A stretch of DNA of 64,000 bases, taken from an uncultured Bacilli bacterium (GTDB lineage: Bacteria; Bacillota_I; Bacilli_A; RF39; UBA660). The stretch's first letter is position 1, and each line of letters begins with the position of its first letter. Position numbers and translations under genes: made by a program. The notes beneath the pieces were generated by a model. The model saw only the letters and a list, made by a program, of their open reading frames with translations, did no database searches and was not told where the DNA came from. The stretch is from assembly GCA_949505625.1 (NCBI GenBank), contig CATBQD010000004.1:1-64000 (forward strand). Reading direction: 5' to 3'. Shown here one piece after another: positions 39,387 through 47,694 of this stretch.

Positions 39387-39458
39387 TCCAAAAACCGTTT
39401 TTTTGCTCTTTTGTGTAACTGAGTGGTGACAATAATAGAAAGGATAAGGAGTTTTAGT

Positions 39459-42400
39459 ATGATGTGTAGTAGAAAAAAAGGGTTCACTTTGATTGAACTA
39501 CTAGCAGTAATCATAATCATTGGAGTAATCGCTTTGATTGTTACACCAATTGTAATTGACGTAATAAAAAAACAAGAGAAGAAAACATTCGAAGAGAGTG
39601 TCCATGGCATTATGGAATCAATTAGAATTGATACAGCAGATGATAATTTTACAATTCCAAGAGAATATCTTTATAAAGATGGGACATTAACATTGTTGAC
39701 AGCAGGTGGAAAAGAAAGAAATGATATTGTAAAAGTAAATGGTAAATATGATGGAGTTGGAGTTTTCATTGTAGATGGGGATGGGGACATTATTGTAGAA
39801 AAAGCCTGTGGACCAACATATTGTGTTAATAATTCAAAAGATGATAGTGATCTTGTATTTAAACCAAGTGATGGAAATGGAAATCCAATAATTGATCCTT
39901 TGGATCCAGTAATTACATTAAATGGTAGTAAAGAATTATTAGTAGGGTTGGGTTCAACTTTTACAGATCCTGGAGTAAATTCTAAAACAGAATCAGGGGA
40001 TGCTATTGCCTATACAACAGTAATTAAACATGGTTCTGAAATAGTAGAAAGCATAGATACAAGTGCAATAGGAACATATGAAATTACATATACAAATGAA
40101 AGCAATGGTAAACGTGCCAGTGTAAAAAGAATTGTAAAAGTAGTAGAGATGAAGCCACAAATTACTATTACCAAAGCAGATAGTAATTATGTAAGAAGTA
40201 AAACGGTAGTAATAAAAGTAACAGCAGTTTCTCCAAATAGAATAACAGGATTTACATATCAAATTGAAGGAGAAAATCCAGTTCAAGTAAATGGTGCAGA
40301 AAAGACAATTACATTAAATTCGACAGGAATCGTAAGTATTGTAGTAAGGGCGACAGATGATAATGGACACAGTGATAGTATAACTGGAGGTCCATATAGA
40401 ATAGATGCAACAGGACCAGAGATAACAATAAATCCAGAAACAGTAACTTTAGATTCAGCGGCAGCAGGAAACTATAACATATTTGAGGGAGTAAGTGTAG
40501 TAGATAATATAGATGGAACAATAGATAATAGTAAAATTATTACAAGTGGAGATACTTTATTATCAATACCAGGAACATATAGAGTAAATTATACAGTAAG
40601 TGATAGATTAGGAAACACAAGTACAGCAACAAGAACATTTGTAGTAAGCGATTCGACAAAACCACAAATTACAATAGCGCCAGAAGAAACAACAAGATTT
40701 GTAAAATCACAAAATGTAAAAATAACAGCAACAGATAATAACAGAGTAGATAGTATAACATATGTGATAATAAAAGATGGAGTAAGAGGAGCAAGTAATC
40801 CAATAAATAATGGAGGAAGTGTAACATTAAATAGTACAGGAAGTTACCAAATAGAAGTAACAGCGACAGATGATAGCGGAAATACGGAAGTTAAAACAAG
40901 TAAAACGTATATGATAGATACAACAGAGCCAGAATTAGTATTTGAGAATGTGACATTAGCGGTAGATGAAGTAGCAGGATTTAATCTAATGACAGGAGTA
41001 ACAGCAACAGATAATAGTGGATTAACGCCAACAATAACATATACAGGAGGATTAAGCGCAACAGTAGGAACGCAAACAATAACATATAAAGCAATAGATG
41101 AAGCTGGAAATGTGGGAACAAGAACAAGAACATTTACAATAACAGCAGCAACGGCTCCAATAATAAGTTTCTCACCAATTCAAACAAGTGGATGGGTAAA
41201 ATCAGTAAATGTGACGATAAGTGCAACAGTAAAAGTGGGAGAAAACTTATCAGCATTTACATATAGTATTAATAATGGAACAACACAGAATGGAACAAGA
41301 GATGGATATCAAGGGACAGCAAGTGTAACACTAAATGCAACAGGAACATATACAATAAGTGCAAGCGCTACTGGAGGATATGGAAATAGTAAGACTGAAG
41401 GAAGTGGAACATACTATATTGATGCAACAGTACCAACAGTAGGAGATATAGCAGGGAATCCAACGGGATGGGTAAAAAATGCGACATTAACAGCAACATT
41501 ATCAGATTCACATAGTGGAATAGTGGCATATGCATGGACAACAAGTAGTGCGACCCCAACAAGTTGGACAAATGTAACAAATACAGCAAATTATTCATTT
41601 AGTCAAAATGTAACAGCAAACGGAACATATTATTTATGGGCAAAAGATGCAGCAGGAAATATATCAGCAGCGAAGAGTGTAACAGTAAGTAAGATAGATA
41701 CAACAACACCAAGTATTACAAGTAGTTATACAAGTACAGCATATTCAACAAATGAGAAAACAAGTGTAGCAGTAAGTACACTATATACAGCAACATTCGG
41801 AGGAATGGGAGGAAGCACAACTTGTAAGAATGGAACAACAACAATAACAAACTTAAATCAATTAGCAGTGGGAAGTTATACATTAACATGTACAGCAACA
41901 GGAGCAAATGGAAAGACAGCAAGTGTAAAACCAAAAGTAACAATTAAATCTGCAGGAACAAGTGGAAGTGACTTGGTAAATAAAGATAATTTGCCTTCCG
42001 TAGGTGGAGGAAATAGATATACTGGCGCAAGTCCAAATAACTTTGTAACATTTAATGGAGGAGCGTATAGAATAATAGGAGTATTTAATGGTCAAATGAA
42101 AATCATATATTGGGGAAGCTATTCAGCAGCAGGAAGCCAATATTTAACAGGAACAGCATGGGATACAAGTAATAGTAATAACTGGGCAAGACCAGCGACA
42201 TTAAATACAACATTAAATAGCACATATTGGAATTCATTAAATTCAACAGCACAAGGAATGGTAGATCAAAGTCACAGTTGGGGAATAGGAGGAATCAGTT
42301 CAGGATATACAAGAAGTCAATTCCAGGCAGCAGAGAATAATACGAAATGGACAGGAAAAGTTGGATTGATGACAGCAGCAGATTATGGATATGCAAGTAC

Positions 42401-42680
42401 AAGCAGTAGTTGTACCGATAGTTTAAATATGAACAGTTCAGCGGCTTGTAAAGATAATAACTGGCTATTTACCAGCTCATACTACCAATGGACGATCACT
42501 CCTCGTAGCGGCAACTCGGGTAGCGTGTGGTATGTGGATACGGGCGGTATTGTCAGCTGGCTTAGCGCGAACTGGGACTATAGCAGTCTTGGGGTGCGCC
42601 CAGTCCTATATCTGAAATCCAATGTAAAAATAACAGGAGGAAGTGGAACAATAAGTTCTCCATATACACTTGGAACGTAG
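39459..42680 (+). CDS. DGR target: prepilin-type N-terminus, Ig-like (DUF5011-like) repeats, C-terminal variable (C-type-lectin-like) domain
   Basis: SD AAGGAG then ATG 39459; KKGFTLIELLAVIIIIGVIALI prepilin signal; repeated Ig-like units (AVDEVAGFNLMTGVTATDNSG...); C-terminal WTITPRSGNSGSVWYVDTGGIVSWLSANWDYSSLGVRPVLYLKSNVKITGGSGT overlapping VR. Confidence 0.9.
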   Translation: MMCSRKKGFTLIELLAVIIIIGVIALIVTPIVIDVIKKQEKKTFEESVHGIMESIRIDTADDNFTIPREYLYKDGTLTLLTAGGKERNDIVKVNGKYDGVGVFIVDGDGDIIVEKACGPTYCVNNSKDDSDLVFKPSDGNGNPIIDPLDPVITLNGSKELLVGLGSTFTDPGVNSKTESGDAIAYTTVIKHGSEIVESIDTSAIGTYEITYTNESNGKRASVKRIVKVVEMKPQITITKADSNYVRSKTVVIKVTAVSPNRITGFTYQIEGENPVQVNGAEKTITLNSTGIVSIVVRATDDNGHSDSITGGPYRIDATGPEITINPETVTLDSAAAGNYNIFEGVSVVDNIDGTIDNSKIITSGDTLLSIPGTYRVNYTVSDRLGNTSTATRTFVVSDSTKPQITIAPEETTRFVKSQNVKITATDNNRVDSITYVIIKDGVRGASNPINNGGSVTLNSTGSYQIEVTATDDSGNTEVKTSKTYMIDTTEPELVFENVTLAVDEVAGFNLMTGVTATDNSGLTPTITYTGGLSATVGTQTITYKAIDEAGNVGTRTRTFTITAATAPIISFSPIQTSGWVKSVNVTISATVKVGENLSAFTYSINNGTTQNGTRDGYQGTASVTLNATGTYTISASATGGYGNSKTEGSGTYYIDATVPTVGDIAGNPTGWVKNATLTATLSDSHSGIVAYAWTTSSATPTSWTNVTNTANYSFSQNVTANGTYYLWAKDAAGNISAAKSVTVSKIDTTTPSITSSYTSTAYSTNEKTSVAVSTLYTATFGGMGGSTTCKNGTTTITNLNQLAVGSYTLTCTATGANGKTASVKPKVTIKSAGTSGSDLVNKDNLPSVGGGNRYTGASPNNFVTFNGGAYRIIGVFNGQMKIIYWGSYSAAGSQYLTGTAWDTSNSNNWARPATLNTTLNSTYWNSLNSTAQGMVDQSHSWGIGGISSGYTRSQFQAAENNTKWTGKVGLMTAADYGYASTSSSCTDSLNMNSSAACKDNNWLFTSSYYQWTITPRSGNSGSVWYVDTGGIVSWLSANWDYSSLGVRPVLYLKSNVKITGGSGTISSPYTLGT
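42497..42607 (+). repeat. DGR variable repeat (VR) within the target gene
   Basis: Near-identical to the downstream TR1; 13 substitutions at TR1 adenines and 1 non-A; invariant GGGGTGCGCCCAG (IMH-like) at its 3' end. Confidence 0.95.
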
Positions 42681-42690
42681 AAACAATAAT

Positions 42691-42722
42691 GTCGTCCAAG
42701 AAGCTCATCGCTTCTAGACGAC
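42691..42722 (+). repeat. Hairpin H1 downstream of the target gene
   Basis: GTCGTC-ca-AGAAGC-tcatc-GCTTCT-a-GACGAC. Confidence 0.8.
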
Positions 42723-42838: not shown

Positions 42839-42870
42839 GTCGCCCAAGAAGCTCATCGCTTCTAGGCGAC
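42839..42870 (+). repeat. Hairpin H2, second copy of H1 with compensatory change
   Basis: GTCGCC-ca-AGAAGC-tcatc-GCTTCT-a-GGCGAC; T:A in H1 becomes C:G. Confidence 0.8.
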
Positions 42871-43023: not shown

Positions 43024-43389
43024 GTGAAAGATTGTATAACACTAAAAAAACTAGGGGGGTTTTATAATGTTTACAACGATGATGCCTATATTCTATTTTA
43101 TTTATTTCATTATAATATAAAAAATAATAAATCAGGATTCCCTTTGACAGCTTATAATAAAGTAATTAATTGTTTAGAAGAAAATGATATTAATTATATA
43201 GTAGAAGGAAAAGAAGAAGTGAAAAGAGACTTTAAAAAGAAAAATAAATATTGTTTTATTGTAGATAAAGGAAAGAAATTATATGAAAGAGAACAAAGGT
43301 CTAATTTTATTTATGAGCGGATTTCTGATTTAAAAGAGTCTGAGATAGATGAACTATTGACTTTGATTGAAGATTATGTTTTCCAGTGA
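43024..43389 (+). CDS. MutS-domain-I-like (MSL) DGR accessory protein
   Basis: GGFYNVYNDDAYILFYLFHYNIKNNKSGFPLTAYNKVINCLEENDINYIV resembles the MutS mismatch-binding domain pattern (G.FYe.f.dDA...L....GfP......V..L....i.y.v); GTG start after AGGAGG. Confidence 0.6.
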   Translation: MKDCITLKKLGGFYNVYNDDAYILFYLFHYNIKNNKSGFPLTAYNKVINCLEENDINYIVEGKEEVKRDFKKKNKYCFIVDKGKKLYEREQRSNFIYERISDLKESEIDELLTLIEDYVFQ

Positions 43390-43735
43390 TAAATTTTTAA
43401 TTGTTAAATATATGAAACAATTTATTCTTTCCTTAGATGAAATAGTAATTAATTATCCTAATAAAGAGATGGTTGTAAAAAATAGATTGCATTCAGATTC
43501 TTTAGATATACTAGAATTTATATATCAGGCAAATATTGAGGATAATCCAGAAAATAGAAAATATTATCAAAATAAGATATTAAGTAAAATAAGTATGTTA
43601 GATTTTTATTTAGAAAAAAGTTATAAGAAGAAATATATAAGTGAAAAAATGTGTCAGAAGAAGAGTAATGAACTAATAAAAATTTCAAAAATGGTATATC
43701 AATGGAAAAGTGCAAAACAACAAGACATATCGTAG
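43376..43735 (+). CDS. avd: Avd-like four-helix-bundle DGR accessory protein
   Basis: All-helical, C-term KMCQKKSNELIKISKMVYQWKSAK like Avd; immediately upstream of and overlapping the RT. Confidence 0.7.
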   Translation: MFSSDKFLIVKYMKQFILSLDEIVINYPNKEMVVKNRLHSDSLDILEFIYQANIEDNPENRKYYQNKILSKISMLDFYLEKSYKKKYISEKMCQKKSNELIKISKMVYQWKSAKQQDIS

Positions 43736-44810
43736 AATATTAGATATATATGAGAATGAAGTATCAAAAAATACAAAAAATAAAAGGAAAGTTTACCAAT
43801 TTGAAAAAAATAAGATGCAAAATTTAGAATTTATATATCAATCTTTGCAGACGACAAACTATAGTGGTGGAAGATATAATATTTTTTTAGTCAAGTATCC
43901 TAAGTATAGAGTTGTTATGTCCTTGAATATGCGCGATAAGGTAATTAATCATTATTTTACACGTTATATTTTAATGCCTAAATTGACTAGATTTCTTGAC
44001 GATCGAAATGTTGCTACAAGAAAAGATATGGGTACACAAGCAGGTCTTAATTATGTAAAAAAGTATTTAGAGAAAAATAAAAAATATGATAAATTTTATA
44101 TTTTAAAAATTGATATTAGTAAGTATTTTTATAGTATTGATCATGAAATCTTAAAGAATATGTTAAAAAAACATTTAAATGATTTTGAATATAAATTCGC
44201 AGAAGCAATTATAAATAGTACCAATCATTCTTATATTAATGATAGTATTAAATTCTTGAAAGATAGAGAATATGAAAAAACAAATAGAAAGAGTGAAATT
44301 GAGAAAATACCTTACTATTCAAATGGAAAAGGATTACCAATTGGAAATATGAGTAGTCAATTTTTATCAATCTTTTATTTAAATGCATTAGATCATAAAA
44401 TAATTCATGATTTTCATATAAAACATTATGTTAGATATATGGATGATTTCTTATTAATTCATCCAGATAAAAAGCATTTAGAATTTTGTTTAAAAGAGAT
44501 AGAAAAAATATTAGTAAATGATTATAAATTAGATTTTAATAAAAATAAAACTAAGATTTATAGTAGTTCAGAAGGATTTGAGTTCTTAGGTTATCGCTTT
44601 AGAATTTATAATAAAAAAACTATTATGACACTTCGTAAAGATACTATTGTACGGATGAAAAAAAGAGTGAAAGAAGTGAATTATTTATATAAACATAATC
44701 GAATGACGTTTGAAAGTGCTTTTAGCAGTATTAATAATTTTTTGAATACTTATCAAGGCAGTAAAGAGAAAACAAGAAGAATTATCGATAGATATTGGTT
44801 TAATGGGTAA
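43710..44810 (+). CDS. DGR-type reverse transcriptase
   Basis: Catalytic YVRYMDDFLLI, block-4 GLPIGNMSSQFLSIFYLN (GxxxSQ typical of DGR RTs), FEFLGYRFR; next to VR/TR. Confidence 0.95.
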   Translation: MQNNKTYRRILDIYENEVSKNTKNKRKVYQFEKNKMQNLEFIYQSLQTTNYSGGRYNIFLVKYPKYRVVMSLNMRDKVINHYFTRYILMPKLTRFLDDRNVATRKDMGTQAGLNYVKKYLEKNKKYDKFYILKIDISKYFYSIDHEILKNMLKKHLNDFEYKFAEAIINSTNHSYINDSIKFLKDREYEKTNRKSEIEKIPYYSNGKGLPIGNMSSQFLSIFYLNALDHKIIHDFHIKHYVRYMDDFLLIHPDKKHLEFCLKEIEKILVNDYKLDFNKNKTKIYSSSEGFEFLGYRFRIYNKKTIMTLRKDTIVRMKKRVKEVNYLYKHNRMTFESAFSSINNFLNTYQGSKEKTRRIIDRYWFNG

Positions 44811-44828
44811 ATGAATGCAAATAAATTC

Positions 44829-44944
44829 GCACTCCTCATAGCGGCAACTCGAATAACGTGTGGTATGTGCATACGGACGGTAATGTCAACTGGAATAACG
44901 CGAACTGGAACAATAGCAATCTTGGGGTGCGCCCAGCCCTTTAA
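44829..44944 (+). repeat. DGR template repeat unit TR1 (best match to VR)
   Basis: Matches VR apart from adenine sites; same orientation; ends GGGGTGCGCCCAGCCCTTTAA. Confidence 0.95.
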
Positions 44945-45012
44945 AAGTAAATGATAAAATTAATATACATAATTTATACAATTTATGGATAAATGTGAGT
45001 AAAAAAGTGCCA

Positions 45013-45128
45013 GCACTCCTTATAGCGGCAACTCGAATAATGTGTGGCGTGTGAATACGAACGGTAATGTCAACAATCCGAACGCGAACAATACCAACAG
45101 TAACAATGGGGTGCGCCCAGCCCTTTAA
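45013..45128 (+). repeat. TR unit 2
   Basis: Same start CACTCCT..., AAY-codon-rich core, GGGGTGCGCCCAGCCCTTTAA end. Confidence 0.9.
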
Positions 45129-45220
45129 AAAGTAAAAAATGAATTTATATAAATCATTTATTTTTATAGTTATATGCAAGAAAGTGATATTAAAGTTTTG
45201 GGTAAATGATATGCAAAATA

Positions 45221-45334
45221 GCTCCTTGGAGCAGCAACTCGAATAACGTGTGGTGGGTGCAAACGAACGGTAATGTCAACACACCGAACGCGAACAATAC
45301 CAACAGTAACAATGGGGTGCGCCCAGCCCTTTAA
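45221..45334 (+). repeat. TR unit 3
   Basis: As above, followed by element D1. Confidence 0.9.
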
Positions 45335-45460
45335 GCATGTAATGAGATATTATGATTAAGGTTATAATAGAGAATTTTAAAGGACATCATTTATCCTTGG
45401 ATCAAAGATCCAGAAGAAAGTATATATATGAAATAAGATACGTCTTATTTCTTCATAGTG
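45335..45460 (+). ncRNA. Conserved structured element D1
   Basis: GCATGTAATGAGATATTATGATTAAGGTTATAATAGAGAATTTTAAAGGACATCATTTATCCTTGGATCAAAGATCCAGAAGAAAG... with stems AAGGA/TCCTT, GGATC/GATCC, GAAATAAGA-TACG-TCTTATTTC. Confidence 0.65.
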
Positions 45461-45516
45461 TATAGAAAATTAATAAATAATAATAAATTAGGGTAAGTAA
45501 TAGTAAAAAAGTGCCA

Positions 45517-45632
45517 GCACTCCTTATAGCGGCAACTCGAATAATGTGTGGTATGTGCATACGAACGGTAATGTCAACAATACGAACGCGAACAATACTA
45601 ACAGCAGCTTTGGGGTGCGCCCAGCCCTTTAA
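45517..45632 (+). repeat. TR unit 4
   Basis: As TR2; carries non-A bases at some otherwise A sites (AGCAGCTTT vs AGTAACAAT). Confidence 0.9.
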
Positions 45633-45689
45633 AATAAAAGTTAATATTAATAAAATGAGTATAGGATAAATGTTGGTAAAAAGGTGTTA

Positions 45690-45804
45690 GCACTCCTCAT
45701 AGCGGCAACTCGAATAACGTGTGGCTTGTGAATACGAACGGTAATGTCGGCACTAACAACGCGAACAATACCAACAGTAACAATGGGGTGCGCCCAGCCC
45801 TTAA
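45690..45804 (+). repeat. TR unit 5
   Basis: As above; GTCGGC where other copies read GTCAAC. Confidence 0.9.
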
Positions 45805-45872
45805 AACATGCGGAGAAAAATATTAAATATAATAAAATAGGTGGGTAAATGTTAGTATAAAAAAGTGTGAAA

Positions 45873-45982
45873 ACACTCCTTATAGCAGCACTAACGTGTG
45901 GAATGTGAATACGAACGGTAATGTCAACACTAACAACGCGAACTGGGACAATAGTAGCCTTGGGGTGCGCCCAGCCCTTTAA
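45873..45982 (+). repeat. TR unit 6 (6-nt in-frame deletion)
   Basis: AGCAGCACTAACGTG versus AGCGGCAACTCGAATAACGTG; followed by D2. Confidence 0.9.
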
Positions 45983-46110
45983 GCATGTAATGAGATATTA
46001 TGATTAAGGTTATAATAGAGAATTTTAAAGGACATCATTTATCCTTGGATCAAAGATCCAGAAGAAAGTATATACATGAAATAAGATACGTCTTATTTCT
46101 TCATAGTATA
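45983..46110 (+). ncRNA. Conserved structured element D2
   Basis: Nearly identical to D1; terminal stem GAAATAAGA/TCTTATTTC. Confidence 0.65.
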
Positions 46111-46322
46111 TAAAATAATTAATAATTAAAATGAGTTTTAGTTTGTATAACGAAAAGTTGTTATTATATAGTTTATAGTAGAATTTTGAATAGTATATAT
46201 AATTAAATAATAATATTGGTACTAGTAGTATGTCTTTGACTTACATATACTTTTATATTTTATAAATAATAAAAGCATTGAAGAAATATAGGGTAAATGA
46301 CATAAAAGGAAACTATGCGTTA

Positions 46323-46429
46323 GCACTCCTTGGAGCAGCGACTCGAATAACGTGTGGAATGTGAATACGGGCGGTAATGTCAACACTAACAACGTGAACA
46401 ATACCAATGGGGTGCGCCCAGCCCTTTAA
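46323..46429 (+). repeat. TR unit 7 (9-nt in-frame deletion)
   Basis: ACCAATGGGGTG versus ACCAACAGTAACAATGGGGTG; followed by D3. Confidence 0.9.
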
Positions 46430-46550
46430 GCGTGTAATGAGATATTATGATTAAGGTTATAATAGAGAATTTTAAAGGACATCATTTATCCTTGGAGATA
46501 TTCCAGAAAAAGGTATATATATGAAATAGGATAAGTCCTATTTCTGTAAA
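46430..46550 (+). ncRNA. Conserved structured element D3
   Basis: As D1 with terminal stem GAAATAGGA-TAAG-TCCTATTTC (compensatory change) and middle stem GGA-GATAT-TCC. Confidence 0.65.
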
Positions 46551-46646
46551 ATATATAATATAGTGTTAAAAATATGAATTATTAAAATGGTTGAAAATCT
46601 TAGATTAATAAATAATTTTGTGGATAAATGTTTCAAAGAAATGTTT

Positions 46647-46761
46647 GATTCCTCATAGCGGCAACTCGAATGCTGTGTGGAATGTGAATACGGACGGTAA
46701 TGTCAACACATGGAACGCGAACAATAACAACAGTAACCTTGGGGTGCGCCCAGCCCTTTAA
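46647..46761 (+). repeat. TR unit 8
   Basis: As above; followed by D4. Confidence 0.9.
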
Positions 46762-46878
46762 GCATGTAATGAGATATTATGATTAAGGTTATAATAGAGA
46801 ATTTTAAAGGACATCATTTATCCTTGGATTATATCCAGAAGAAAGTATATATAGAAAGTAAAATACGTTTTACTTTCA
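46762..46878 (+). ncRNA. Conserved structured element D4, 5' leader of the next ORF
   Basis: As D1 with terminal stem GAAAGTAAAA-TACG-TTTTACTTTC; AGGAGG RBS follows immediately. Confidence 0.65.
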
Positions 46879-46890
46879 GGAGGTATATAA

Positions 46891-47175
46891 ATGAGTTTAA
46901 AAACAAGATATGATTTTATAAAAAGAAAACACAAGGATTATTTAGTATTGTTTAATGAAAATAATCGTTATTTTTCTTGTGATGAAGATAAAGAATTGTT
47001 GAAAGATATAAGGTTTTGGAATAATTTAAAAGATTTGGAAAAAAGGCATATTAGTTATATGGTATTTACAAATGTAGTAAGAGTGAGAAAATTCGATTCC
47101 AAAGAAAATAATTATACAAGATATTGTAAGATGTTAAAAGCCAAAAAGATTATTGCAAAGCTAATAGAACGTTGA
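46891..47175 (+). CDS. Small MutS-domain-I-like protein (divergent)
   Basis: YDFIKRKHKDYLVLFNENNRYFSCDEDKELL...LEKRHISYMV; weak similarity to the MutS domain I pattern; SD AGGAGGT. Confidence 0.45.
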   Translation: MSLKTRYDFIKRKHKDYLVLFNENNRYFSCDEDKELLKDIRFWNNLKDLEKRHISYMVFTNVVRVRKFDSKENNYTRYCKMLKAKKIIAKLIER

Positions 47176-47268: not shown

Positions 47269-47694
47269 TTGAGTAAATTATATACAAGATATTTAGAATT
47301 AAAAAGAGAAAATCCAAATAAGATGTATTTGATAAAGGCTGGACTTTTTTACATATTTATCGGAGAAGATGCAATTACGATGAGTAATATGACAAAATTA
47401 AAATGTGTTCCTCTTAATGATAGAGTTATGAAATGTGGCTTTCCAGAAAGCGCAAAAACAAAATATTTAAGAAGACTAAAAGAAAATGGAAAAGAAGTTG
47501 AAGTCATAGATTTAAAAGAAGATAAAAAAATAGATCCAGCATTTACATCACAATTAGATTGTCTATTAGCTTTAGAATCTTTAGACCTTAATACGATTAC
47601 TCCTATACAAGCAATTGAATATTTATCTAGTATTCAACGTGAATTATTAAGAATAAAAGCTGAGGAAGAGGAAAAGAAAGAAAAAGTTTTTTAA
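47269..47694 (+). CDS. MutS-like mini protein (domain I plus MutS-tail-like helix)
   Basis: YTRYLELKRENPNKMYLIKAGLFYIFIGEDAITMSN...KCGFPESAKTKYLRRLKENGKEVEVID, then LDLNTITPIQAIEYLSSIQREL (like the MutS C-terminal LTPxxALxxLxxL tail); TTG start. Confidence 0.75.
   Translation: MSKLYTRYLELKRENPNKMYLIKAGLFYIFIGEDAITMSNMTKLKCVPLNDRVMKCGFPESAKTKYLRRLKENGKEVEVIDLKEDKKIDPAFTSQLDCLLALESLDLNTITPIQAIEYLSSIQRELLRIKAEEEEKKEKVF

Follow-up and report, generated by a model that had tools for sequence, protein, structure and literature searches.

The locus described here raises the question what the four repeated elements (D1-D4) that alternate with the template repeats (TRs) of its diversity-generating retroelement (DGR) do. 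It lies in a 64-kb stretch of DNA (the window) whose host genome is a member of an uncultured gut Bacilli family, the relatives obtained by RT search including Candidatus Onthousia. The window contains a complete DGR, with genes for an RT and an Avd-type accessory protein, eight TRs (44830 to 46761) and one VR within the target gene (Table 1), and the differences between TR and VR are concentrated at TR adenines. Bbp7 of Bordetella phage BPP-1 (4dwl; E 0.041) was the top PDB match of the Avd profile. A second small MutS_I-like protein is encoded at 47269-47694 and together with that at 43024-43389 flanks the DGR. The 94-aa protein encoded next to D4 gave no family above cut-off in Pfam, NCBIfam and PHROG profile searches; its homologues occur at many other sites across the clade of this DGR and frequently lie just 5' of a TR-D unit or just 3' of the RT. 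Two inverted repeats, at 42691-42722 and 42839-42870 (GTCGTCCAAGAAGC...GCTTCTAGACGAC and GTCGCC...GGCGAC), follow the target gene, some 80 and 230 nt downstream of the VR; one compensatory pair distinguishes them. In this they are reminiscent of BPP-1, although its hairpin/cruciform target element lies 4 bp from the VR (PMC3240598).

Table 1. Features of the DGR cassette, with window coordinates
Feature	Position	Strand	Remarks
DGR target gene, prepilin-like protein with Ig-like repeats and C-terminal variable domain	39423..42680	+	Pfam N_methyl 2.9e-7, Bact_surface_Ig-like 1.7e-27; NCBIfam IV_pilin_GFxxxE
VR (variable repeat), near target-gene end	42497..42610	+	repeat of TRs
MutS_I-like small protein, conserved in cassette	43024..43389	+	Pfam MutS_I 0.011, below cut-off; homologues in many DGR loci of clade
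Avd	43367..43735	+	PHROG 3206 'Avd protein of DGR' 5.6e-11; NCBIfam DivGenRetAVD 3.2e-7, below cut-off
DGR reverse transcriptase (RT)	43710..44810	+	RVT_1 2.5e-20; PHROG 1423 7.4e-75
5' box of TR1 (GGGTAAATGA)	44805..44814	+	10/10 pairs with D TCATTTATCC; overlaps RT stop codon
TR1, without own D	44830..44944	+	best donor of VR
5' box of TR2	44987..44996	+	9/10 pairs with D
TR2, without D	45014..45128	+	
5' box of TR3	45200..45209	+	10/10 pairs with D1
TR3	45222..45334	+	last 7 nt CCTTTAA, start-helix strand with D1
D1, very probable RNA scaffold element	45335..45473	+	repeat copy 45335-45451; 125.9 bits
D1 TTAAAGG, partner of TR 3' end	45377..45383	+	followed by conserved A 45384 (proposed priming base)
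D1 TCATTTATCC, partner of 5' box upstream of TR	45387..45396	+	
5' box of TR4	45491..45500	+	9/10 pairs with D
TR4, without D	45518..45632	+	
5' box of TR5	45664..45673	+	9/10 pairs with D
TR5, without D	45691..45805	+	
5' box of TR6	45843..45852	+	9/10 pairs with D2
TR6	45874..45982	+	
D2	45983..46121	+	repeat copy 45983-46099; TR-end strand 46025-46031, A 46032, box strand 46035-46044
5' box of TR7	46291..46300	+	10/10 pairs with D3
TR7	46324..46429	+	
D3	46430..46566	+	repeat copy 46430-46544; full-length sub-threshold Rfam RT-14 match at 46424-46544
5' box of TR8	46622..46631	+	9/10 pairs with D4
TR8	46650..46761	+	
D4	46762..46898	+	repeat copy 46762-46875; terminal stem overlaps AGGAGG of ORF 46891
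94-aa unnamed protein, conserved in this DGR clade	46891..47175	+	homologues in other DGR loci

The original prediction of four repeated elements interleaved with the TRs was borne out: the copies are 90-100% alike, and each starts at the base after a TR (TR3, TR6, TR7 and TR8). Locally, D forms three hairpins, namely P1 with a UUAAG-type loop, P2, which is the GGATC/GATCC hairpin already predicted, and a long P3 made of an outer and an inner helix and usually capped by UACG. The compensating terminal stem was likewise found as described, with GAAATAAGA/TCTTATTTC in D1 and D2, GAAATAGGA/TCCTATTTC in D3 and GAAAGTAAAA/TTTTACTTTC in D4. When 52 diverse relatives were aligned by MAFFT, blind to structure, and evaluated over 37 pairs including the start helix described below, standard pairs occupied 89.1% of cells, compared with 65.0% after shuffling and 39-48% when the partners were slid by one to three columns. 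The covariation score of 0.639 was reached by none of 500 shuffles (0.214 +- 0.010) and fell to 0.099-0.187 with slid partners; changes on both sides were detected in 35 of the 37 pairs. The structure of D thus withstood the expanded alignment, with significant covariation. The supposedly conserved local stem AAGGA/TCCTT did not: it pairs in only 73.5% of cells, one of its pairs turns from G-C to A.C in 11 of the 52 relatives without compensation, and both strands belong to the long-range helices. Nor did the TATAAT noted in D hold up as a promoter element, as it is present in only 8 of the 52 relatives and constitutes the 3' strand of P1, whose pairing is kept; a sigma-70 promoter was therefore rejected. 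A pseudoknot between AAGG of the P1 loop and CCTT was set aside because its CC is taken by the box helix. The most conserved bases of D are those of the P1 loop and of the ACA/TATCC segments, not those of P3. At two other places in the genome (C22:15180, C2:90249), short stretches matched D weakly and in part.

A BLAST search with D1 led to D in four other genomes of the genus, and a covariance model of D and its relatives (R1, 21 sequences) detected it directly 3' of TRs, and on the same strand, in about 20 genera of the family. TR ends were recognised from a VR of the locus that differs from the TR specifically at A; measured from them, D started at -9 to +12 nt in nearly all well-scoring R1 matches, and in most of these the TR-VR mismatches fell on adenines. 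Among the 67 copies of the held-out set, 40 had such a VR within the locus DNA examined, giving 673 mismatches at A and 84 others for TR/VR pairs that had been chosen for A bias. The expected co-occurrence with DGR RTs was also observed: D was present in 21 of 243 genomes of the family, 20 of which carry the RT, and in 59 of 65 RT loci not used for R1, where 68 of 69 matches lay on the RT strand. All matches among 395 genomes of the class fell in this same family, and a search around 80 distant phage DGR-type RTs (27-36% identical, 587 kb) gave no R1 match at E <= 1.

Besides its local hairpins, D takes part in two long-range helices that the original prediction had not recognised. In the start helix, the TR end CCTTTAA pairs with TTAAAGG of D, the 7 nt before D position 50, and variants such as CTCTTAT with ATAAGAG (L074), CCTAAAT with ATTTAGG (L173) and TCAAAAT with ATTTTGA (L268) preserve the pairing. 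The discovery set had 6.38 of 7 pairs, compared with 5.61 +- 0.10 after permutation of the partners, and the held-out set 6.73 compared with 5.74 +- 0.07 (0 of 5000 permutations in each); permutation of this kind leaves some relatedness between loci, a concern met only in part by the cases within one genome and by the held-out set. Some loci of the latter may be closely related to discovery loci. Pairing with the TR 3' end presents an internal adenine: the base after the start helix was A, beginning ACA, in 67 of 67 held-out copies and almost always A in the discovery set, with three exceptions (C in L054, T in L082 and L172). In the box helix, a box 25-35 nt 5' of the TR (GGGTAAATGA in the window, consensus GGGTAR or GGTTRA) pairs with D positions 53-62 (TCATTTATCC), so that D also pairs with RNA upstream of the TR; variants are GGGTAGACTT with AAGTCTATCC (L083) and GGTTAGG with CCTAACC in one unit of the G167 array. 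Here, 9.29 of 10 pairs were counted in the discovery set (7.82 +- 0.10 permuted) and 9.46 in the held-out set (8.32 +- 0.08), again with 0 of 5000 permutations, and the G167 array alone gave 9.0 compared with 8.43 (0 of 10000; 70 of 10000 if its six distinct D segments only are considered). The minimum-energy fold of box-TR3-D1 included the box helix, P1, P2 and P3, and lacked the start helix. Across 23 phage DGR clusters including that of BPP-1, the box helix was clearly retained (24.99 compared with 16.28 +- 0.70; 0 of 10000), with pairing not significant in a control region, whereas the start helix was not significant over this mixed set (15.12 compared with 14.74; 2019 of 10000) and was rejected as a general feature of DGRs. 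Several TRs of the window are preceded by, or start with, a short hairpin that lies 3' of the box and varies in sequence (AGTGCCAGCACT, GCTCCTTGGAGC), for instance at 45509-45520.

The high similarity of the copies in the window and the existence of degenerate copies (L029 3314, L032 7328) would also suit a passive repeat, mobile or spread by recombination, that travels with the TRs by chance. This is contradicted by the compensatory changes across about 20 genera, by the strict adjacency to TRs and by genome G239, in which three types of TR end each have their own D variant (two with 7/7 pairs, one with 6/7), all of which indicate selection on the structure of D and make a passive repeat extremely improbable. 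The nine TR-D units of G239 are spread over six contigs (L158-L163), and the genome is not listed with an RT match.

The two helices recall what has been reported for DGR template RNAs. In BPP-1, the structured spacer (Sp) recruits RT-Avd, an internal adenine of it primes cDNA synthesis, and a motif in the 3' end of avd stops the cDNA (PMC12875486). For DGRs, a trailing RNA of predicted conserved structure is also described as interacting with the RT and its accessory protein (PMC8867640). In the BPP-1 sequence (AY029185), TR123-129 can pair with Sp48-54, the segment immediately preceding C55-A56, and AGGGCAGG at the 3' end of avd can pair with Sp63-70, the helix search also giving other helices of similar length. 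Like D, this Sp is structured, lies directly 3' of the TR and has segments able to pair with the TR 3' end and with an upstream GGG-type box. The spacing is nearly the same, with 13 nt from A56, the adenine known to prime, to CC69 in BPP-1 and 12 nt from A50 to CC62 in D. On the other hand, D is AT-rich, occurs in several copies and is missing from half of the TRs, and in the window it precedes other TRs or an accessory gene, unlike the BPP-1 Sp, which precedes the RT. The latter Sp constitutes Rfam family RF03022 (Phage_DGR), whose model did not match the window.

A resemblance was also seen to Rfam RF02921 (RT-14). D3 scored 21.9 bits, below the cut-off of 48.1, which none of 13 other D loci reached either, but it aligned over positions 1-144 of 144 with the same order of elements, namely a UAAG-loop hairpin, UUAAAGG, UAU..UCCUU, a hairpin and a long terminal hairpin. 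RT-14 itself was located directly 3' of the TR in ten phage DGR loci (L287, L291, L297, L300, L301, L315, L316, L330, L340 and L348), and as its matches start at the TR end, RT-14 looks like a DGR template RNA. At the level of the models the two differ, since R1 does not find the RT-14 phage RNAs. The description of D as a new RNA therefore stands insofar as no Rfam family reaches its threshold, and is qualified by the full-length match to RT-14; no family unrelated to DGRs was matched. From the sequence comparison, D is probably a divergent, below-threshold relative of RT-14. Retron msr/msd RNAs and the ncRNAs of DRTs are likewise structured RNAs beside an RT gene, where they prime or template cDNA, and D resembles them in this location; retrons and DRTs, however, are without a TR-VR pair, A-specific mutation or an Avd gene, all of which the present DGR has.

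D closes the groups TR1-3, TR4-6, TR7 and TR8, which amounts to four D for eight TRs in the window; G001 of the same genus has eight TRs with three D and one degenerate D. Such a position at the end of each TR group, with the stable hairpin P3 closing every copy, might suggest a terminator or processing signal that ends each TR transcript, as had been proposed. No U tract follows P3, the inner stem being followed by TTCATAG in D1 and D2, TGTAAAA in D3 and AGGAGG in D4, so that an intrinsic terminator was rejected. Moreover, D4 is directly followed by a Shine-Dalgarno sequence and an ORF, the segments pairing with the TR end and the box are better conserved than P3, and in many loci D lies upstream of MutS_I-avd-RT on the same strand, where a terminator would cut the operon. 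We consider this reading very unlikely. A further proposal, in which D acts in cis as an attenuating leader and so regulates the gene that follows, agrees with D4 and its same-genus relatives, where the outer P3 strand overlaps the AGGAGG of ORF 46891, and with other genera, where D precedes accessory genes. It could hold for D4 at most, as D1-D3 precede TRs rather than genes; G167 carries 13 tandem TR-D units at intervals of about 280 nt, which leaves no room for intervening genes; and a leader does not explain why D covaries with the TR end and with the box 5' of the TR. As the main function it is therefore very unlikely, and D may affect downstream expression as a side effect.

No D would fit into the short gaps that follow TR1, TR2, TR4 and TR5, and these TRs nevertheless keep both pairing sequences (box 9-10/10, TR end 6-7/7). 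Compared with the core of TR1, the VR shows 18 changes at A and one other change (at C), whereas every other TR differs from it by at least six non-A core positions. Judged by this pattern, the VR is a descendant of TR1, which has no D; for the VRs of two same-genus genomes, no clear donor TR was found. Since the VR matches best a TR without D, an adjoining D does not seem strictly needed, unless it was lost afterwards. Were TR1, TR2 and TR3 transcribed together, the D that ends this transcript could pair with the box and TR end of any of the three and thereby choose among templates, and that one D serves several TRs in this genus is offered as a tentative possibility, somewhat short of an even chance. 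In the G167 array, by contrast, each of the 13 TRs has its own D; this array (L157, G167:C11:9500-18500) lies on a contig different from that of the RT, and several VR-like sites occur there and on other contigs. Several TR-D units per genome were also found in G239, G570 and G582.

Therefore, from the position of D directly 3' of the TRs, its folds, the two covarying helices that bracket the TR, its association with one RT clade and the counterparts in phages, D is very likely the 3' scaffold domain of the DGR template RNA and the counterpart of the BPP-1 Sp. Of the functions proposed originally, position and covariation strongly favour that of an RNA scaffold, and binding of RT and Avd would be expected of it. 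The helix, position and RT-14 comparisons suggest an RNA that plays the part of Sp and whose kinship with RT-14 is probably a remote one, below the thresholds of both families. In the transcript, the order would be box-TR-D, with D folding into P1, P2 and P3. Pairing of UUAAAGG with CCUUUAA would bring the next base, an A in nearly all copies, to the 3' end of the TR, where, by analogy to BPP-1 and from the geometry, it would prime cDNA synthesis. Pairing of UCAUUUAUCC in D with GGGUAAAUGA of the box would close the template into a loop, and on the same grounds copying would stop at the box helix, and RT and Avd would bind the folded box-TR-D RNA. By pairing with both ends of the TR, D thus probably shows the RT where copying starts and stops.

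For one phage system, biochemical work has established how a DGR RT recognises where its template starts and ends. The bacterial family described here provides an evolutionary test, in which the two helices defining the template ends co-vary and the box helix is also found in phage DGRs. The sequence rule of GGG box, TR end and ACA offers a means to locate template boundaries in other DGRs, the roles of the start and box helices become testable by compensatory mutants, and for Rfam RT-14 a function as DGR template RNA is pointed to. For the family itself, the TR-D arrays of up to 13 units and the genus in which D appears to be shared suggest that one RT may be supplied with many alternative templates.
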